DNA from: Pseudomonadota bacterium
GTDB lineage: Bacteria > Pseudomonadota > Gammaproteobacteria > Steroidobacterales > Woeseiaceae
NCBI GenBank assembly: GCA_022563195.1
Contig: JADFNV010000016.1
Span: 1-64,000 of the forward strand
Length of the DNA stretch: 64,000 bases
Reading direction: 5' to 3'
Shown: positions 29,373 through 36,357 of the stretch, one piece after another
How positions within the stretch are numbered: position 1 is the stretch's first letter
Layout of the letters: each line of letters starts with the position of its first letter
Position numbers and translations under genes: made by a program
Notes under the pieces: generated by a model
What the model was told of the DNA's origin: nothing
What the model saw: the letters and a program-made list of their open reading frames with translations, nothing else
Database searches by the model: none

Positions 29373-30452
29373 ATGAGCATCGATCGCAGGACGTTTCTGA
29401 AATTGTCGGGCGCCGCCGTCGCGGCATCGCAAGTCGCAGCGTGTGCCGGTATCGAAAAGATACCCACGCAAGGCGTTCCGCGCAGTCATTTTGACGAGGA
29501 TTCGACGGCCGAAGAAGTCTCCGAAGATGTCGATTTGCAGGGCAAGCTTGCGGTTGTCACGGGCTGCACGTCGGGCATTGGTTTCGAGACGATGCGCGTC
29601 CTGGCGATGCGCGGCGCATACGTCGTCGGCACCAGTCGCTCACTCGAAAAAGCACAGGCTGTATGCAAAAATGTACGGGGCGTGACGAGCGCGGTGCAAC
29701 TCGAGCTTTCGGATTTCGATTCGGTCGTCGCATGTGCCGATGCCATTCGCTCGATTAATCAGCCGCTGGATATTCTGGTCTGCAATGCGGGTTACCTGGG
29801 CGGCGGCGGTCATCGTGAACTCGTAAACGGCTTCGAGAAGCACTTTGTCGTCAATCATCTGGGACATTTTGTCCTCGTGAACCGCCTGCTGGGACGCTTG
29901 TATATGTCGTGGCAGGGCAGGATCGCAGTCGTTGCGAGCCGCTCCTCCTACACGGATGCGCCTGAGGCTGGCATTGAGTTCGACAATCTCGAAGCGTCGC
30001 GCAATTACGCTGACAGGCGTTCCTATGGTCATTCGAAACTCGCCAACGTCTTGTTTGCGCTGCAGCTGGGCAAATTGCTCAGGGGTACCCGTATCACGGT
30101 GAATTCATTGCATCCTGGCGTGATCAATACCGAGATCGACCGCAACTTGAATCGCTTTATGCAAGGCGCGTTCGCGGTTGTTGCCGCACTGGGCTACGGC
30201 AAGACGATCGAACAAGGTGCGGCGACCAGTTGCTTCGTTGCTACCAGCCCGTTGCTGGGTTCGACGAGCGGAAAGTATTTCGAAGATTGCAATGCCGTCA
30301 CGGTAGTGGGCGATGGGCACTTGCATGACGAGGCCATGGCCGCCGAACTGTGGCGCGTGTCTGAAGAACTCACCCGCGATTATCTCGTCTCGCATGACGG
30401 TCCTGACTGGAACGATTTCGAGCGCGCACTGCAAGAAGGACAATCCGGCTAG
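29373..30452 (+). CDS. SDR family oxidoreductase with Tat/lipoprotein-like signal
   Basis: MSIDRRTFLKLSGAAVAASQVAACAG; TGCTSGIGFET, NAGYLGGG, YGHSKLANVLF SDR motifs. Confidence 0.85.
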   Translation: MSIDRRTFLKLSGAAVAASQVAACAGIEKIPTQGVPRSHFDEDSTAEEVSEDVDLQGKLAVVTGCTSGIGFETMRVLAMRGAYVVGTSRSLEKAQAVCKNVRGVTSAVQLELSDFDSVVACADAIRSINQPLDILVCNAGYLGGGGHRELVNGFEKHFVVNHLGHFVLVNRLLGRLYMSWQGRIAVVASRSSYTDAPEAGIEFDNLEASRNYADRRSYGHSKLANVLFALQLGKLLRGTRITVNSLHPGVINTEIDRNLNRFMQGAFAVVAALGYGKTIEQGAATSCFVATSPLLGSTSGKYFEDCNAVTVVGDGHLHDEAMAAELWRVSEELTRDYLVSHDGPDWNDFERALQEGQSG

Positions 30453-30455
30453 GAG

Positions 30456-30603
30456 ATGTCTGCGGGTAAGAACGAAGCGCTCGTACTGTTATCGGGCGGG
30501 CAGGATTCGACCACCTGCCTTCACTGGGCGATCGACCACTTTTGAAGCACTTGACGTGATGGCGATGACCCACACATGCTACAACGGCAAGCGCCCGCCG
30601 TGA
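30456..30603 (+). pseudogene. queC: queC remnant (7-cyano-7-deazaguanine synthase), large internal deletion
   Basis: MSAGKNEALVLLSGGQDSTTCLHWAIDHF* (PP-loop N-terminus) then ...THTCYNGKRPP* (C-terminal Cys motif region) within about 150 bp. Confidence 0.75.
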
Positions 30604-30677
30604 ATTTCTGCCTGAGGCACCCGCAGTGGCAATTGAGTTTGCAGACACACAAGATTTTGGGAATTGACTAAGCTGTT

Positions 30678-31079
30678 GTGAACCATCGAATTACACGACT
30701 GATTTTCGCCATTGGCATCGGCATTGTCGTCGCTGTCTTCGCTTATCGCTGGATCATTGACCCCGCACCGCGAGCCGAGCGGGTGATGCAGGAGTCTGCT
30801 GTAGCGGCCGCGCGAAATTTGCTCGAGCAGACGCTTGAAATCGGCACGCTGGAAGTCGTAGATCCGCTCGAGCCTGATCGAAAAATCGGCAAGACTTACG
30901 TGTTTCCCGCTGCACGAGGATGGGAAGTATCCGGATTCTATCGACGCGATGACAATGACCTTTGGCATCCGTATCTGATGACCCTCGACGACTCACTGCA
31001 GCTCACGCATCTCAAAGTGTCAGATCCCGCATTGTTCGACCGCGTAAATGACAAACCCTTGCTCGAAATATTGCCCTGA
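30678..31079 (+). CDS. Hypothetical single-TM protein
   Basis: MNHRITRLIFAIGIGIVVAVFAYRWIIDP then soluble domain. Confidence 0.55.
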   Translation: MNHRITRLIFAIGIGIVVAVFAYRWIIDPAPRAERVMQESAVAAARNLLEQTLEIGTLEVVDPLEPDRKIGKTYVFPAARGWEVSGFYRRDDNDLWHPYLMTLDDSLQLTHLKVSDPALFDRVNDKPLLEILP

Positions 31080-31141
31080 ATCAGGCCTCGTCGAGGAACG
31101 CACCTGCCGATGAAAACGCACGGCAGTTAGCGGCAATGATC

Positions 31142-32296
31142 TTAATGTCGCTGGATGGCTAGTTCCACGGTCTCGGCTTCTGCATCGTCATAATAGACCC
31201 AGACATTTTCTTCGCCGGTCAGCAATTCAATATACTTGGGGTGTACGAAGATATTTTCGCGACCTGACTTGATTTCTTTCAATACTCCGGCGTCACAGAG
31301 CTGCTTGAGGTACACCGACGCCGTCTGGCGCTTGGCGACACCCGAGTTGACGAGGTTGCTGATGCGGCAATAAGGCTGTTTGAAAAGCAATTCGACAAGT
31401 TCCCAGGTGTAAATCTTCGGCAGCTTGGCCTGCACGTACTCGGCCGTATGTTCCATGAGTTCGCGAATGGCCTTGATCTTGTCGGTGGTCCACGAGCAGG
31501 TATCCTCGATGCCTTCGAGAATAAACATGATCCACGGTAGCCACTCTTGCTCATCGGTCACATTCTGTAACAAGCGATAATAGGCCGCTTTGTTACTGAT
31601 GATGTAGCGACTGAGGTACAGAATGGGCGAGTTGAGCAGACCGTGCTGAACGAGGAACAGGATATTGAGGATTCGGCCGGTTCGACCGTTGCCATCTGCG
31701 AACGGATGAATGGCCTCGAACTGGTAGTGCTGCACAGCCAGCCGGACAAGCGGGTCGAATTCGGTCCTGCGATGCATGAATTCGGCCCAGTTGTCGAGCA
31801 TGGCCTGCAACAACTTCTGGCCTTCCGGAGGCGTGTAGATGACCTTGCCGGTGGCGCGGTTTTTCAGCCTTGTCCCGGATTCTGATCGAATATCAAGCTC
31901 CTGGCCTTTGATCGTACTGCAGATCTGTATGGCCATGTCGGTCGTGAGCATGCCACGCTGAACCATCTTGCTGCCTTCGTACAGCGCGGTTCGATAGCGC
32001 AAGGCTTCTTTGGTCGCGGCGTCGGCGCGATCTTCATTGATATCGGCGAACTCGAAAAGCTTGTCCGTGGTCGTGACAATATTCTCGATCTCCGAGCTTG
32101 CGCGGGCCTCCAAGAGCGGTATTGCATTGACGAGAACGGCCGAATTCGGGATCAGTTCGGCGGCTTGTTTGAGTTCAGCAAGGGCGACACGTGCCTTGAT
32201 GCATTGCTTGAGGATTTCTGTCGTTTCGATCAATGCGGCTGCCGGCGGCAGGTCCGGAAGCGCGTTGTATGGAATTTCTGGATTAAAATCAGTCAT
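31142..32296 (-). CDS. Fic family protein, class II with N-terminal inhibitory motif and C-terminal winged-helix-like region
   Basis: HPFADGNGRTGR Fic motif; SSEIEN = [S/T]xxxE[G/N] inhibitory motif; C-terminal ISNLVNSGVAKRQTASVYLKQLCDAGVLKEIKSGRENIFVHP wHTH-like; resembles SoFic organisation. Confidence 0.93.
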   Translation of the reverse strand: MTDFNPEIPYNALPDLPPAAALIETTEILKQCIKARVALAELKQAAELIPNSAVLVNAIPLLEARASSEIENIVTTTDKLFEFADINEDRADAATKEALRYRTALYEGSKMVQRGMLTTDMAIQICSTIKGQELDIRSESGTRLKNRATGKVIYTPPEGQKLLQAMLDNWAEFMHRRTEFDPLVRLAVQHYQFEAIHPFADGNGRTGRILNILFLVQHGLLNSPILYLSRYIISNKAAYYRLLQNVTDEQEWLPWIMFILEGIEDTCSWTTDKIKAIRELMEHTAEYVQAKLPKIYTWELVELLFKQPYCRISNLVNSGVAKRQTASVYLKQLCDAGVLKEIKSGRENIFVHPKYIELLTGEENVWVYYDDAEAETVELAIQRH

Positions 32297-32324
32297 TTAA
32301 GCCTACACTGCTGGGTCGATGCCA

Positions 32325-32529
32325 TCGACACATCCGAATAATGTGTCGAAGAAACACGATTATATCGACATATATCCAGGAGATGTTGATTGCATCGACA
32401 CGTCTGATTAATATGTCGAAGAAACACGATTATATCGACATATATCCAGGAGATGTCGATTGCATCGACACATTCTCCTGATATGTCGATATTTCCTCAT
32501 AATTTCGACAAGTTCGGAGTATATGTCGA
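32325..32529. repeat. Array of six 25-bp inverted repeats (operator array candidate)
   Basis: TCGACA-N13-TGTCGA units at 32325, 32365 (TGTTGA variant), 32395, 32435, 32465, 32505; spacers 15,5,15,5,15 bp. Confidence 0.9.
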
Positions 32530-32663
32530 TGTCGTAGACGCATGCGTGAACCAGTTCGAGAAACGAAAATATTATCCTGAATCGGGCGATTTCATATTCC
32601 GTGCTGCACGAACTTTGCTATAGAATCCGCCTCCCATAAATCGTGCTTTAGAGGAAACCCAAA

Positions 32664-34340
32664 GTGACCGTGAAAAGTGACATCGAGATCGCACAGGCGG
32701 CGGACATTCGTCCGATTTCCGAGATCGCCGAGAAACTGGGCATACCGGTTGAGGTACTGATTCCCTACGGTCACGACAAGGCGAAAATCAGCGCCGAATT
32801 CATTCAATCCAACGGTAAGAATAGTGACGGCAGACTCATCCTCGTCACGGCGGTCTCGCCGACACCTGCCGGTGAGGGTAAGACCACGACGACGGTCGGA
32901 CTGGGTGACGGTCTCAACAGGATCGGCAAACGCGCTGTGATCTGCCTGCGCGAACCCAGTCTCGGGCCGTGCTTTGGTATGAAGGGCGGTGCGGCAGGTG
33001 GTGGCTACGCGCAGGTGGTACCGATGACCGACATCAACCTGCATTTTACGGGCGATTTTCATGCCATCGGTGCGGCGAACAATCTGCTTGCTGCATTGAT
33101 CGACAACCACATGCATTGGGAAAATCAACTCAACATCGACCCGCGCCGAGTTACCTGGCGGCGCGTTGTAGACATGAATGATCGTACCTTGCGATCCGTC
33201 ACGTCAGGGCTGGGCGGCTACCATAACGGCGTCGTTCGTGAGGCCGGGTTCGATATAACCGTAGCCTCCGAAGTCATGGCGATCTTCTGTCTTGCGACAG
33301 ACCTGCAGGATCTCGAAAATCGCCTGGGCAATATCGTGTTGGGTTATACACGCAAAAACGAGCCCGTAACGGTGCGCGAGCTGAACGCTCATGGCGCGAT
33401 GACGGCATTGCTCAAAGATGCCCTGCAGCCGAATCTCGTGCAGACACTCGAGAACAACCCGGCCCTGATGCACGGTGGTCCATTCGCGAACATTGCGCAC
33501 GGTTGTAATTCCGTGATGGCGACGCGAACCGCACTCAAGTTGGCAGACTACGTTGTCACCGAGGCTGGATTCGGTGCGGATCTCGGCGCTGAGAAATTCT
33601 TCAACATCAAGTGCCGTAAGGCGGGCTTTCATCCGGATGCGGTGGTACTGGTGGCGACGATCAGGGCACTGAAAATGCACGGTGGTGTGGCTAAGGGGAA
33701 ACTGGGTGAGGAGGATATTGAGGCCCTGGAGCATGGCCTGAAAAATCTGGGCAGGCACTTGCGAAATCTCGCGCAATTCGGCGTGCCCGTTGTGGTTGCC
33801 GTGAATCGTTTTACAGCCGATACGGATGCAGAAGTAGATGTCGTGAAGAAATACTGTGAGACCTTCGGCGTGCATGCCGTCAACTGCACGCATTGGGCAG
33901 ATGGTGGAGCCGGCGCGACCGATCTCGCGGCGCATGTTGTAGAACTGGCCGACAGCGGTGCTGCGCAGTTTCGCACCTTGTACAGTGATGAGCTGCCTCT
34001 CTGGGACAAGGCCAAACGAATTGCAACGACGATCTACGGTGCCGACGACATCATTGCCGATCAGAAAATCCGCGCGCAATTTGATCAATTCGAGGCAGCG
34101 GGCTATGGCCACTACCCGGTATGTATGGCTAAGACGCAGTACAGTTTTTCAACAGACCCGAACCTCCTGGGTGCGCCGTCGGGTCATGTCGTGCCCATTC
34201 GCGAAGTTCGGCTCGCAGCAGGCGCCGAATTTATCGTCGTTGTCTGCGGCGACATCATGACCATGCCCGGTTTGCCAAGAGTACCAGCGGCTAACGCGAT
34301 ACGCGTTAATGCCGAGGGTCTTATCGAAGGACTTTTCTAA
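32664..34340 (+). CDS. fhs: Formate--tetrahydrofolate ligase
   Basis: [53 protein letters not shown]. Confidence 0.96.
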
Positions 34341-34467
34341 GGCTTCCTTCACTGCGATTTTCTCGAAAAGAGTTACCCTGTTGCCAAAATAAAACGAATT
34401 CTGCCAAATCACGTACCATTGGCCGCTGCACCGAGACTTTGGTGGGGCAGGGAGGGAGTCGAGAGGA

Positions 34468-36357
34468 ATGCCAACCGACGAAGAGCTGCAGAAGGGCTTC
34501 GATATTGGGGATTGGGAAGTCCTGCCGGCGCGCGGCGAGTTGCGCTGCGGCGATTCTGTGGTCAAGCCCGAGCCCAAGGTGATGGCTGTCCTGCTGTCGC
34601 TTGCCAGGCGAGATGGCGATCTCGTTACTCGCGACCAGCTCGTCGATGAGGTCTGGGGTGGGCGGGCGATGCCCGACGACCCGATCAACCGCTGCCTGTC
34701 GCAACTTCGTGGCCACCTGGACGATCAGGCAAAGCCATACCAGTACATTGAGACTCTGACCAAACGCGGCTACTGCCTTTTGCAGGATGTACGTCTCAAG
34801 GAGCCTGCCGAGCTGGCTCCTGTGGCAAGAGGGCAGAGGGCGCAAAGACGCGGAATGTACTGGGGCATCGCTGCCGTTGTCGCAGTGGTCATTATCAGTG
34901 TCCTGGTCTTTCCACGACCCCCAAAAATCGGGTCGATCGGTGTATTGCCATTCGAAAACCTGAGTGGCGACCCAGCCGATCAATACCTTGTCGACGGGTT
35001 CAAGATGGAACTCGTAAAGACACTCAGCAATATTCCCGACTTCCTGGTCAAGAGTGGTCGTGTTTCCTATCCAGGGCTCGAGGTAACGGAAATCGCGCGC
35101 GAGCTGGATGTGGAGAGTGTGTTTAGTGGTGCTATGCAGCGTGACGGCGACATGTTGAAAGTTAACTACGAAGTTGCGCGCGGTGACGACGGCAAGATCA
35201 AGTCATCCGGCAGCATTACCGTTTCGTTCGAGGATATTTTTGATGGGCAGGAAAAACTCGCCGTAACGGTACGCAACGACTTGCTTGGCGAGTCGAAGCG
35301 GCAGCTCATTTCGTCGAGCCGGCCTGAGAGTTTCGACGGCTATGATCGTTATATGCGCGGTCTGTACGCATTCGAAAATCGCGATCAAACCCACAATCTC
35401 GAAGCAGCGATCCGCCTGTTTCGGGAAACGATTGAACTGGACTCACAATTCGGTCCCGCGTACCTGGCGTTGTCAATGTCGTACCTGCTGTTGCCCGACT
35501 ATGCGCTGTTGGCGGGCACGCGCGAGGCGCCGTTGGCAGAGACTCACGCCATGGCAATTACCGTGGTCGAACAGGGCATCAGCGTCGACGAGAGCATTCG
35601 CGATGCGGCCAATACGATATACGGATTCGTCTACCAGAAGCAACGCAACTGGTCATTGGCAGAGCAGGCGTACCAGCGGGCAACCCGTGCACAGACAGTG
35701 GAGTCCACAGCTTTCCTCTGGTATTCGCTGATGCTTGCCAATGTCGGCCGTCTGGACGATGCGCTGCAACAAGCGCTCGCGGCGCAACGCATCGATCCCA
35801 GTTTGGCAGTGATCAACAGTCGTGTGGCGCTTGCCTATGCGTGGCTAGACGACAACGACAACGCGTCCGAATTCTTCACGCGAACAAAGGGTTTGGATTG
35901 GACCGGGGCATCGCATCTACTTTCGCATGCGCTGTTCTTGCGGCGACAGGGCCGCGTCGATGAGGCAGGGCAGGCGATCATTGAGGGCCTGGCAATGGCC
36001 GGCGGGCAAGCCGATTGGACTGCGGCGGTGATAGCAGGGTTGAGTGATCCTAAGCAAGTCGAAACGAGCCTTGCTGCGCTGGACCGGGCGGCCATAGATC
36101 AGTCAGTCAACCTGCGTGTGGAAGTCGTTTTCCGCACATTGCTGGGAGACATCGACGGGGCGATGCGGGTGGCGAACAGATTGACAGACCCCGAACAGTC
36201 GATAGAGCTGGACTTCCTGTTTCTTCCCGACCTGCTGCCAATTCAGCAACATCCCGGATTCCTCAGCTTAATGGACGACCTCGGCATCGCGAGGTACTGG
36301 GACGAGACTGGATGTATCTGGCAGGATTTCGCCGTGAAGTGCCCTGAAATCTTATAG
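34468..36357 (+). CDS. CadC-like winged-helix transcriptional regulator with TM and TPR repeats
   Basis: VMAVLLSLARRDGDLVTRDQLVDEVWGGRAMPDDPINRCLSQLRGHL; TM; IGVLPFENLSGDPADQYLVDGF; TPR region. Confidence 0.88.
   Translation: MPTDEELQKGFDIGDWEVLPARGELRCGDSVVKPEPKVMAVLLSLARRDGDLVTRDQLVDEVWGGRAMPDDPINRCLSQLRGHLDDQAKPYQYIETLTKRGYCLLQDVRLKEPAELAPVARGQRAQRRGMYWGIAAVVAVVIISVLVFPRPPKIGSIGVLPFENLSGDPADQYLVDGFKMELVKTLSNIPDFLVKSGRVSYPGLEVTEIARELDVESVFSGAMQRDGDMLKVNYEVARGDDGKIKSSGSITVSFEDIFDGQEKLAVTVRNDLLGESKRQLISSSRPESFDGYDRYMRGLYAFENRDQTHNLEAAIRLFRETIELDSQFGPAYLALSMSYLLLPDYALLAGTREAPLAETHAMAITVVEQGISVDESIRDAANTIYGFVYQKQRNWSLAEQAYQRATRAQTVESTAFLWYSLMLANVGRLDDALQQALAAQRIDPSLAVINSRVALAYAWLDDNDNASEFFTRTKGLDWTGASHLLSHALFLRRQGRVDEAGQAIIEGLAMAGGQADWTAAVIAGLSDPKQVETSLAALDRAAIDQSVNLRVEVVFRTLLGDIDGAMRVANRLTDPEQSIELDFLFLPDLLPIQQHPGFLSLMDDLGIARYWDETGCIWQDFAVKCPEIL

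Follow-up and report, generated by a model that had tools for sequence, protein, structure and literature searches.

A phased half-site array upstream of SoFic-family fic genes as a probable auto-operator

The analysed stretch of DNA, 64,000 nucleotides long and from here on referred to as the window, carries a fic gene and an fhs gene that point away from each other, with an array of inverted repeats between them (Table 1). The Fic protein matches the SoFic equivalog model NF046030 with 588.6 bits (curated cut-off 550) and contains Fic_N (PF13784), Fic (PF02661) and SoFic-like_C (PF21248) in that order, all above cut-offs. PADLOC assigns the protein to SoFic, and the best solved structures are those of Shewanella SoFic (PDB 3eqx/9tch). 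The active-site motif HPFADGNGRTGR (P0001; consensus HPFx[D/E]GNGRxxR) is intact and the class II inhibitory motif SSEIEN is present, while an alignment of SoFic proteins yields H197, P198, F199, D201-R205, G207, R208 and S67-N72 as invariant columns. Judged by its sequence, the window Fic is a SoFic protein adenylyltransferase with predicted AMPylation activity. Its C-terminal part (residues 280-355) is the SoFic-like winged helix, in which an AlphaFold model places helices at 298-306, 312-317 and 323-335, followed by a two-strand wing (strands 340-351); the model is weak overall (pLDDT 58.5), moderate in the winged-helix part, and served for the layout of the winged helix only. A fold search returned SoFic structures, with a DNA complex absent among the best matches. 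Related loci carry the names Woeseiaceae or unclassified gammaproteobacteria.

Table 1 Coordinates of genes and array elements in the window.
Feature	Position	Strand	Remarks
fic, SoFic-family class II protein adenylyltransferase, 384 aa	31142..32296	-	profiles, PADLOC, PDB matches
Terminal half-site GGTCGA (fic strand TCGACC)	32314..32319	-	5 bp beyond unit 1, on lattice
Unit 1, TCGACA-N13-TGTCGA, fic-proximal	32325..32349	none	exact match
15-bp spacer, fic strand TATAATCGTGTTTCT	32350..32364	-	second copy at 32420-32434
Unit 2, TCGACA-N13-TGTTGA	32365..32389	none	one mismatch
Unit 3	32395..32419	none	exact match
Unit 4	32435..32459	none	exact match
Unit 5	32465..32489	none	exact match
Unit 6, fhs-proximal	32505..32529	none	exact match
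Terminal half-site, decayed, fic strand CGTCTA, two mismatches	32535..32540	-	5 bp beyond unit 6, on lattice
fhs	32664..34340	+	

A first-pass annotation of this DNA had described six units of TCGACA-N13-TGTCGA at 32325-32529. All six are present, five of them exact, and the unit starts advance in steps of 40, 30, 40, 30 and 40 bp with spacers of 15, 5, 15, 5 and 15 bp, just as it had claimed. Duplication of a 70-bp block, which it had also proposed, could be recovered: blocks lie at 32315, 32385 and 32455, and identity to the first block is 90% for the second and 63% for the third. However, the element comprises more than these six units; it is a lattice of half-sites with extra ends in most relatives and with half-site centres 19, 21, 19 and 11 bp apart. 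The first half-site reads TGTCGA in 40/55 and the last TCGACA in 44/55 close relatives, and half-sites thus extend beyond complete 25-bp units. The position of the terminal half-site next to unit 1 corresponds to the commonest array end in relatives (37/55), and the half-site that has decayed at the far end of the window array is intact (TGTCGA) at the same lattice position in L006, a relative with 95% identity.

When up to two mismatches to the unit pattern are allowed, the window holds 20 matches against a shuffle mean of 4.1 (maximum 10), and no exact unit match was found in the window outside the array. The entire 3.03-Mb genome contains just two other exact units, and a pattern search found no further arrays in it. 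A genome-wide regulon for the unit was considered and rejected, since these two units are single and lie at positions under large open frames. A consensus sigma-70 promoter scan identified no clear promoter in the fic direction and one weak, shuffle-level candidate on the plus strand; a TATAAT hexamer on the fic strand of the spacer at 32350-32364 is a possible -10 element.

The idea that all dyads lie on one face of the DNA holds near 10.0 bp per turn only. At 10.5 bp per turn, 40 and 30 bp correspond to 3.81 and 2.86 turns, which displaces successive dyads by about 69 and 51 degrees; because both steps are multiples of 10 and not of 10.5, a single face would, as a matter of arithmetic, require overwound DNA. 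Two pairings of half-sites into dimer sites can be argued for. The extra end half-sites, together with the joint decay of N15 partner half-sites, argue for dimer pairing across N5/N15, while the constant N13 and the matched arm types within N13 pairs of Pantoea, Cedecea and E. coli point to N13 pairing.

Alignment of fic upstream regions across relatives revealed the array on the 40/30 lattice in all close orthologs, with no case of absence. Orthologs of 69-95% identity for which upstream sequence is available all have it, with 3 to 10 units, and in close relatives the array typically ends some 50-70 bases from the fic start codon. In a deduplicated set of 59 close and 23 distant upstream regions, the latter belonging to proteins of about 54-60% identity, the array is present in 82/82, a set that may still include near-identical genomes, so its counts are not those of independent events. 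These 82 regions contain 348 units (at most two mismatches); 253 of the 266 steps between them measure exactly 30 or 40 bp, with the two lengths alternating in 176 of 177 consecutive step pairs, while dinucleotide shuffles average 3.1 units and 0.02 steps of this kind. Most arm positions carry close to 2 bits and the unit middle about 0.1 bit, which indicates that spacing is maintained without the intervening sequence. The extended half-site consensus across relatives is aTCGACATaT, and the 15-bp and 5-bp spacers tend to TAAAATnnnnTTTTA and TnnnA, respectively.

The same units and 30/40 steps are found in other gammaproteobacterial families (SoFic identity 56-59%). Plasmid-encoded SoFic genes of Sinorhizobium, Mesorhizobium, Methylosinus, Agrobacterium, Rhizobium, Martelella and Roseibium have TGTCGA-N15-TCGACA-N13-TGTCGA-N5-nCGACA-N13-TGTCGA, whole or in part, and in several of these arrays the final half-site overlaps the ATG. 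On several rhizobial and related plasmids (L140 3577-4068, L143 3524-4068, L146 2790-4068 and L148 3556-4014), SoFic adjoins the replication gene repC, in many cases separated from it by a recombinase gene, an adjacency that may point to a link with plasmid maintenance. In Cedecea, Pantoea and E. coli, the same lattice is occupied by about ten half-sites, some of them degenerate, that alternate between the TCGACA and TAAACA types; the last one, TAAACA, stands directly 5' of the ATG. The arrays of Salmonella SoFic plasmids (n=2) are shorter or more degenerate, and Neisseria has TAAACA half-sites only, spaced 30 bp apart. Among complete E. coli genomes, 278 of 5,426 encode a SoFic gene at ≥80% coverage, and the window's lattice is found in 3/3 of the E. 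coli upstream regions inspected, which would make this species a ready test system. In E. coli S10 (L174 1533-2608), the SoFic gene carries a frameshift according to its annotation, and a second gene of the Fic family comes after it.

When 387 genomes of the class were searched for the double unit (55 bp, at most two mismatches allowed), 12 of them gave matches, compared with 0 for a reversed-pattern control. Eleven of the 12 precede SoFic (9) or a SoFic remnant (2). The remnants comprise residues 1-52 and 119-156 in G199 and, as a weak match, residues 4-16 in G144; with these found, the reading that the arrays of both genomes stand before non-fic genes was rejected. The same applies to a second array in G002 (contig C26), considered as lying before another gene, where a second fic copy is cut by the contig end. 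The remaining match, in G302, has two mismatches and neither fic nor a remnant beside it, and is best taken as chance. The single IMG/VR contig with the exact pattern also has SoFic behind the array. With a looser pattern (5-bp arms, 2 mismatches), chance matches in these genomes became too numerous to count, and selected ones were examined.

A link between the array and fhs did not survive the comparison. Only part of the SoFic family has fhs adjoining fic: the two are neighbors in 36 loci, and another 36 loci, which lack fhs in the available sequence, still have the array (a variant array in Neisseria). In G001, fic lacks its middle, residues 1-30 running directly into 298-320; fhs is intact there, and a collapsed array of three half-sites is left. 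Assignment of the array to fhs was thus rejected, given that it is kept without fhs and collapsed where fic is lost and fhs kept. The array end and the fhs start lie 134 bp apart in the window (32530-32663), and this distance hardly changes among relatives whose arrays are shorter or longer, which suggests that fhs retains a promoter region of its own. In three genomes (L122 1501-1625, L126 1461-1830 and L173 1583-1740), part of the array survives together with a fic remnant, which indicates repeated loss of fic.

The sequence of the arms varies together with that of the predicted recognition helix of Fic. Clade-1 proteins have a helix of the type [AG][KQHR]R[QE][TAS][AVS] and TCGACA, in some cases TAAACA, arms, with AKRQ[TA]A being paired with TCGACA. 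SoFic-like proteins of 38-45% identity mostly have [ST]R[LIM]TATKYL, and their recognisable arrays have TATACA arms. Specifically, [ST]R[LI]TATKYL is found with TATACA arms at a 41-bp period (L111, L152, L154), RLTASRYL with TGAACA arms (L155, L160) and SRQTAAKYL with TTAACA arms (L114). All arm types share nnnACA, and it is therefore the outer bases that vary with the helix. This co-variation, which comprises few independent changes and to which shared ancestry contributes, points, together with fic being the only common gene, to the Fic winged helix as the reader of the array. Many SoFic-like proteins below 50% identity have no recognisable array in their upstream regions. Upstream of distant SoFic-like or other Fic genes (L111, L114, L120, L152, L154, L155, L160 and L168) there are tandem repeats of 40-41 bp, inverted or direct, whose arms are of different types (TATACA, TTAACA, TGAACA and TTGAGA); in L168, the repeat is a 40-bp direct one. 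These sequences suggest that phased operators may be a wider habit of winged-helix Fic proteins.

We hypothesize that the array is the auto-operator of fic, read by SoFic itself, bound cooperatively and repressing fic, and we put the probability of this reading at roughly 0.8. Binding, cooperativity and repression at the array are what we infer from the comparisons above. The cooperative auto-operator had been suggested by the first-pass annotation, and family-wide conservation and arm-helix co-variation strengthen the idea at the level of sequence: arms that track the Fic recognition helix are a prediction of a Fic-bound operator, and their co-variation indirectly supports both specific SoFic binding to the repeat and repression of fic. 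In the proposed mechanism, each C-terminal winged helix of SoFic, a dimeric AMP-transferase, would read one half-site (aTCGACATaT). The fixed lattice of half-sites (19-21-19-11 bp) would allow several dimers to bind side by side and in contact, coating the fic promoter and leader and repressing fic cooperatively. Repression would hold an enzyme that is toxic on over-production at a low level, and a drop in free SoFic would restore fic expression. Repression of fic makes sense in light of wild-type EcSofic, a dimer in which the C-terminal domain matters and which is toxic when expressed in E. coli (PMC12249575).

An alternative that is compatible with the auto-operator is that the array serves mainly for storage or switching, holding SoFic in a less toxic or deAMPylating state from which release, for example upon phage attack, activates it, with repression being secondary. 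DNA binding alters the activity and oligomeric state of CbFic2 (PMC10628234), the C-terminal domain controls the toxicity of EcSofic (PMC12249575), SoFic is listed as a defence protein, and the 3-10 sites of close relatives exceed the need of simple repression. However, site number varies freely among these relatives, and we consider this explanation unlikely. A more specific proposal, in which a multi-dimer SoFic complex on the 70-bp lattice would be the resting form of the enzyme, DNA would act as both operator and antitoxin, and phage disturbance would derepress fic and free the AMP-transferase, is speculative and appears quite doubtful.

A separate regulator, encoded elsewhere, could read the array and control fic with SoFic not being the binder, and such a regulator could likewise evolve matched arms. 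However, alpha- and gammaproteobacteria share this lattice, which is found both on chromosomes and on plasmids and beside unrelated neighbors with fic alone in common, the arms change along with the Fic recognition helix, and the class-wide scan places the array only before fic; we regard a separate regulator as improbable. The arms are inverted repeats upstream of a start codon and might thus act as RNA hairpins in the fic leader instead of as protein sites on DNA, but 6-bp arms with 13-base loops are weak, nothing at the RNA level would explain an exact 30/40 alternation over 82 regions, close relatives have anywhere between 3 and 10 units, and no Rfam RNA family was found in 30000-36000, making this hardly credible. 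Practically no weight is given to a selfish or neutral tandem repeat maintained by block duplication: 70-bp blocks do duplicate, with two nearly identical copies in the window, and unit numbers vary, but the comparison already contradicts such an origin, with interiors near background, arms and spacing exact, the array standing before fic in both alpha- and gammaproteobacteria, and decay of the array where fic is lost.

SoFic, an AMP-transferase associated with defence, is widespread, and what triggers and controls it is poorly understood. If the enzyme does read the operator, this would be the first specific DNA ligand for SoFic and would provide a handle on the control of its expression and perhaps its activity. 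The 40/30 alternation common to alpha- and gammaproteobacteria would further offer a clean natural system for operator geometry set by protein-protein contacts.

CccR, a Fic protein of Yersinia pseudotuberculosis, binds AGATAATCAT-N26-ATGATAATCT through its helix-turn-helix domain and represses cccR; it requires a dimer, is toxic through AMPylation and is a T6SS effector (PMC9755527). The window fic is similar in having an inverted repeat upstream of its own gene and, based on the PF21248 match and a low-confidence model, a C-terminal helix-turn-helix or winged helix. Unlike the single CccR operator with its 26-bp spacer, the fic array is multi-unit (3-10) and phased, with 13/15/5-bp spacers and other arms, and is thus described here as probably working like CccR and not as a CccR operator. 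The SoFic of Shewanella oneidensis (3EQX, 3ZCN) and EcSofic belong to the same protein family as the window Fic and have the same domains. A small downstream antitoxin, AS1, is reported for EcSofic (PMC12249575), and no operator for either protein is described in the passages of literature examined. CbFic2 of Coxiella burnetii is likewise a Fic enzyme with a C-terminal helix-turn-helix whose activity and oligomeric state change on DNA binding, and by analogy an effect of DNA on SoFic enzyme activity is possible; CbFic2 differs in its subfamily (DUF4172) and in that random DNA was studied, with no specific site (PMC10628234). DNA binding by SoFic had not been demonstrated by 2023 (PMC10628234). 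A literature search, with most subscription journals lying outside it, yielded CccR and CbFic2 only with regard to Fic operators and found neither a later report of SoFic DNA binding nor a paper combining Fic and TGTCGA. Fic autorepression itself is known from CccR, and it is the multi-site, phased form of it proposed here that would be new. In multi-palindrome toxin-antitoxin operators and the iterated sites of plasmid centromeres, dimers bind repeated palindromes cooperatively and autoregulation results. The fic array would differ from both in that the putative DNA reader is the toxic enzyme itself, and it differs in its strict 40/30 alternation.
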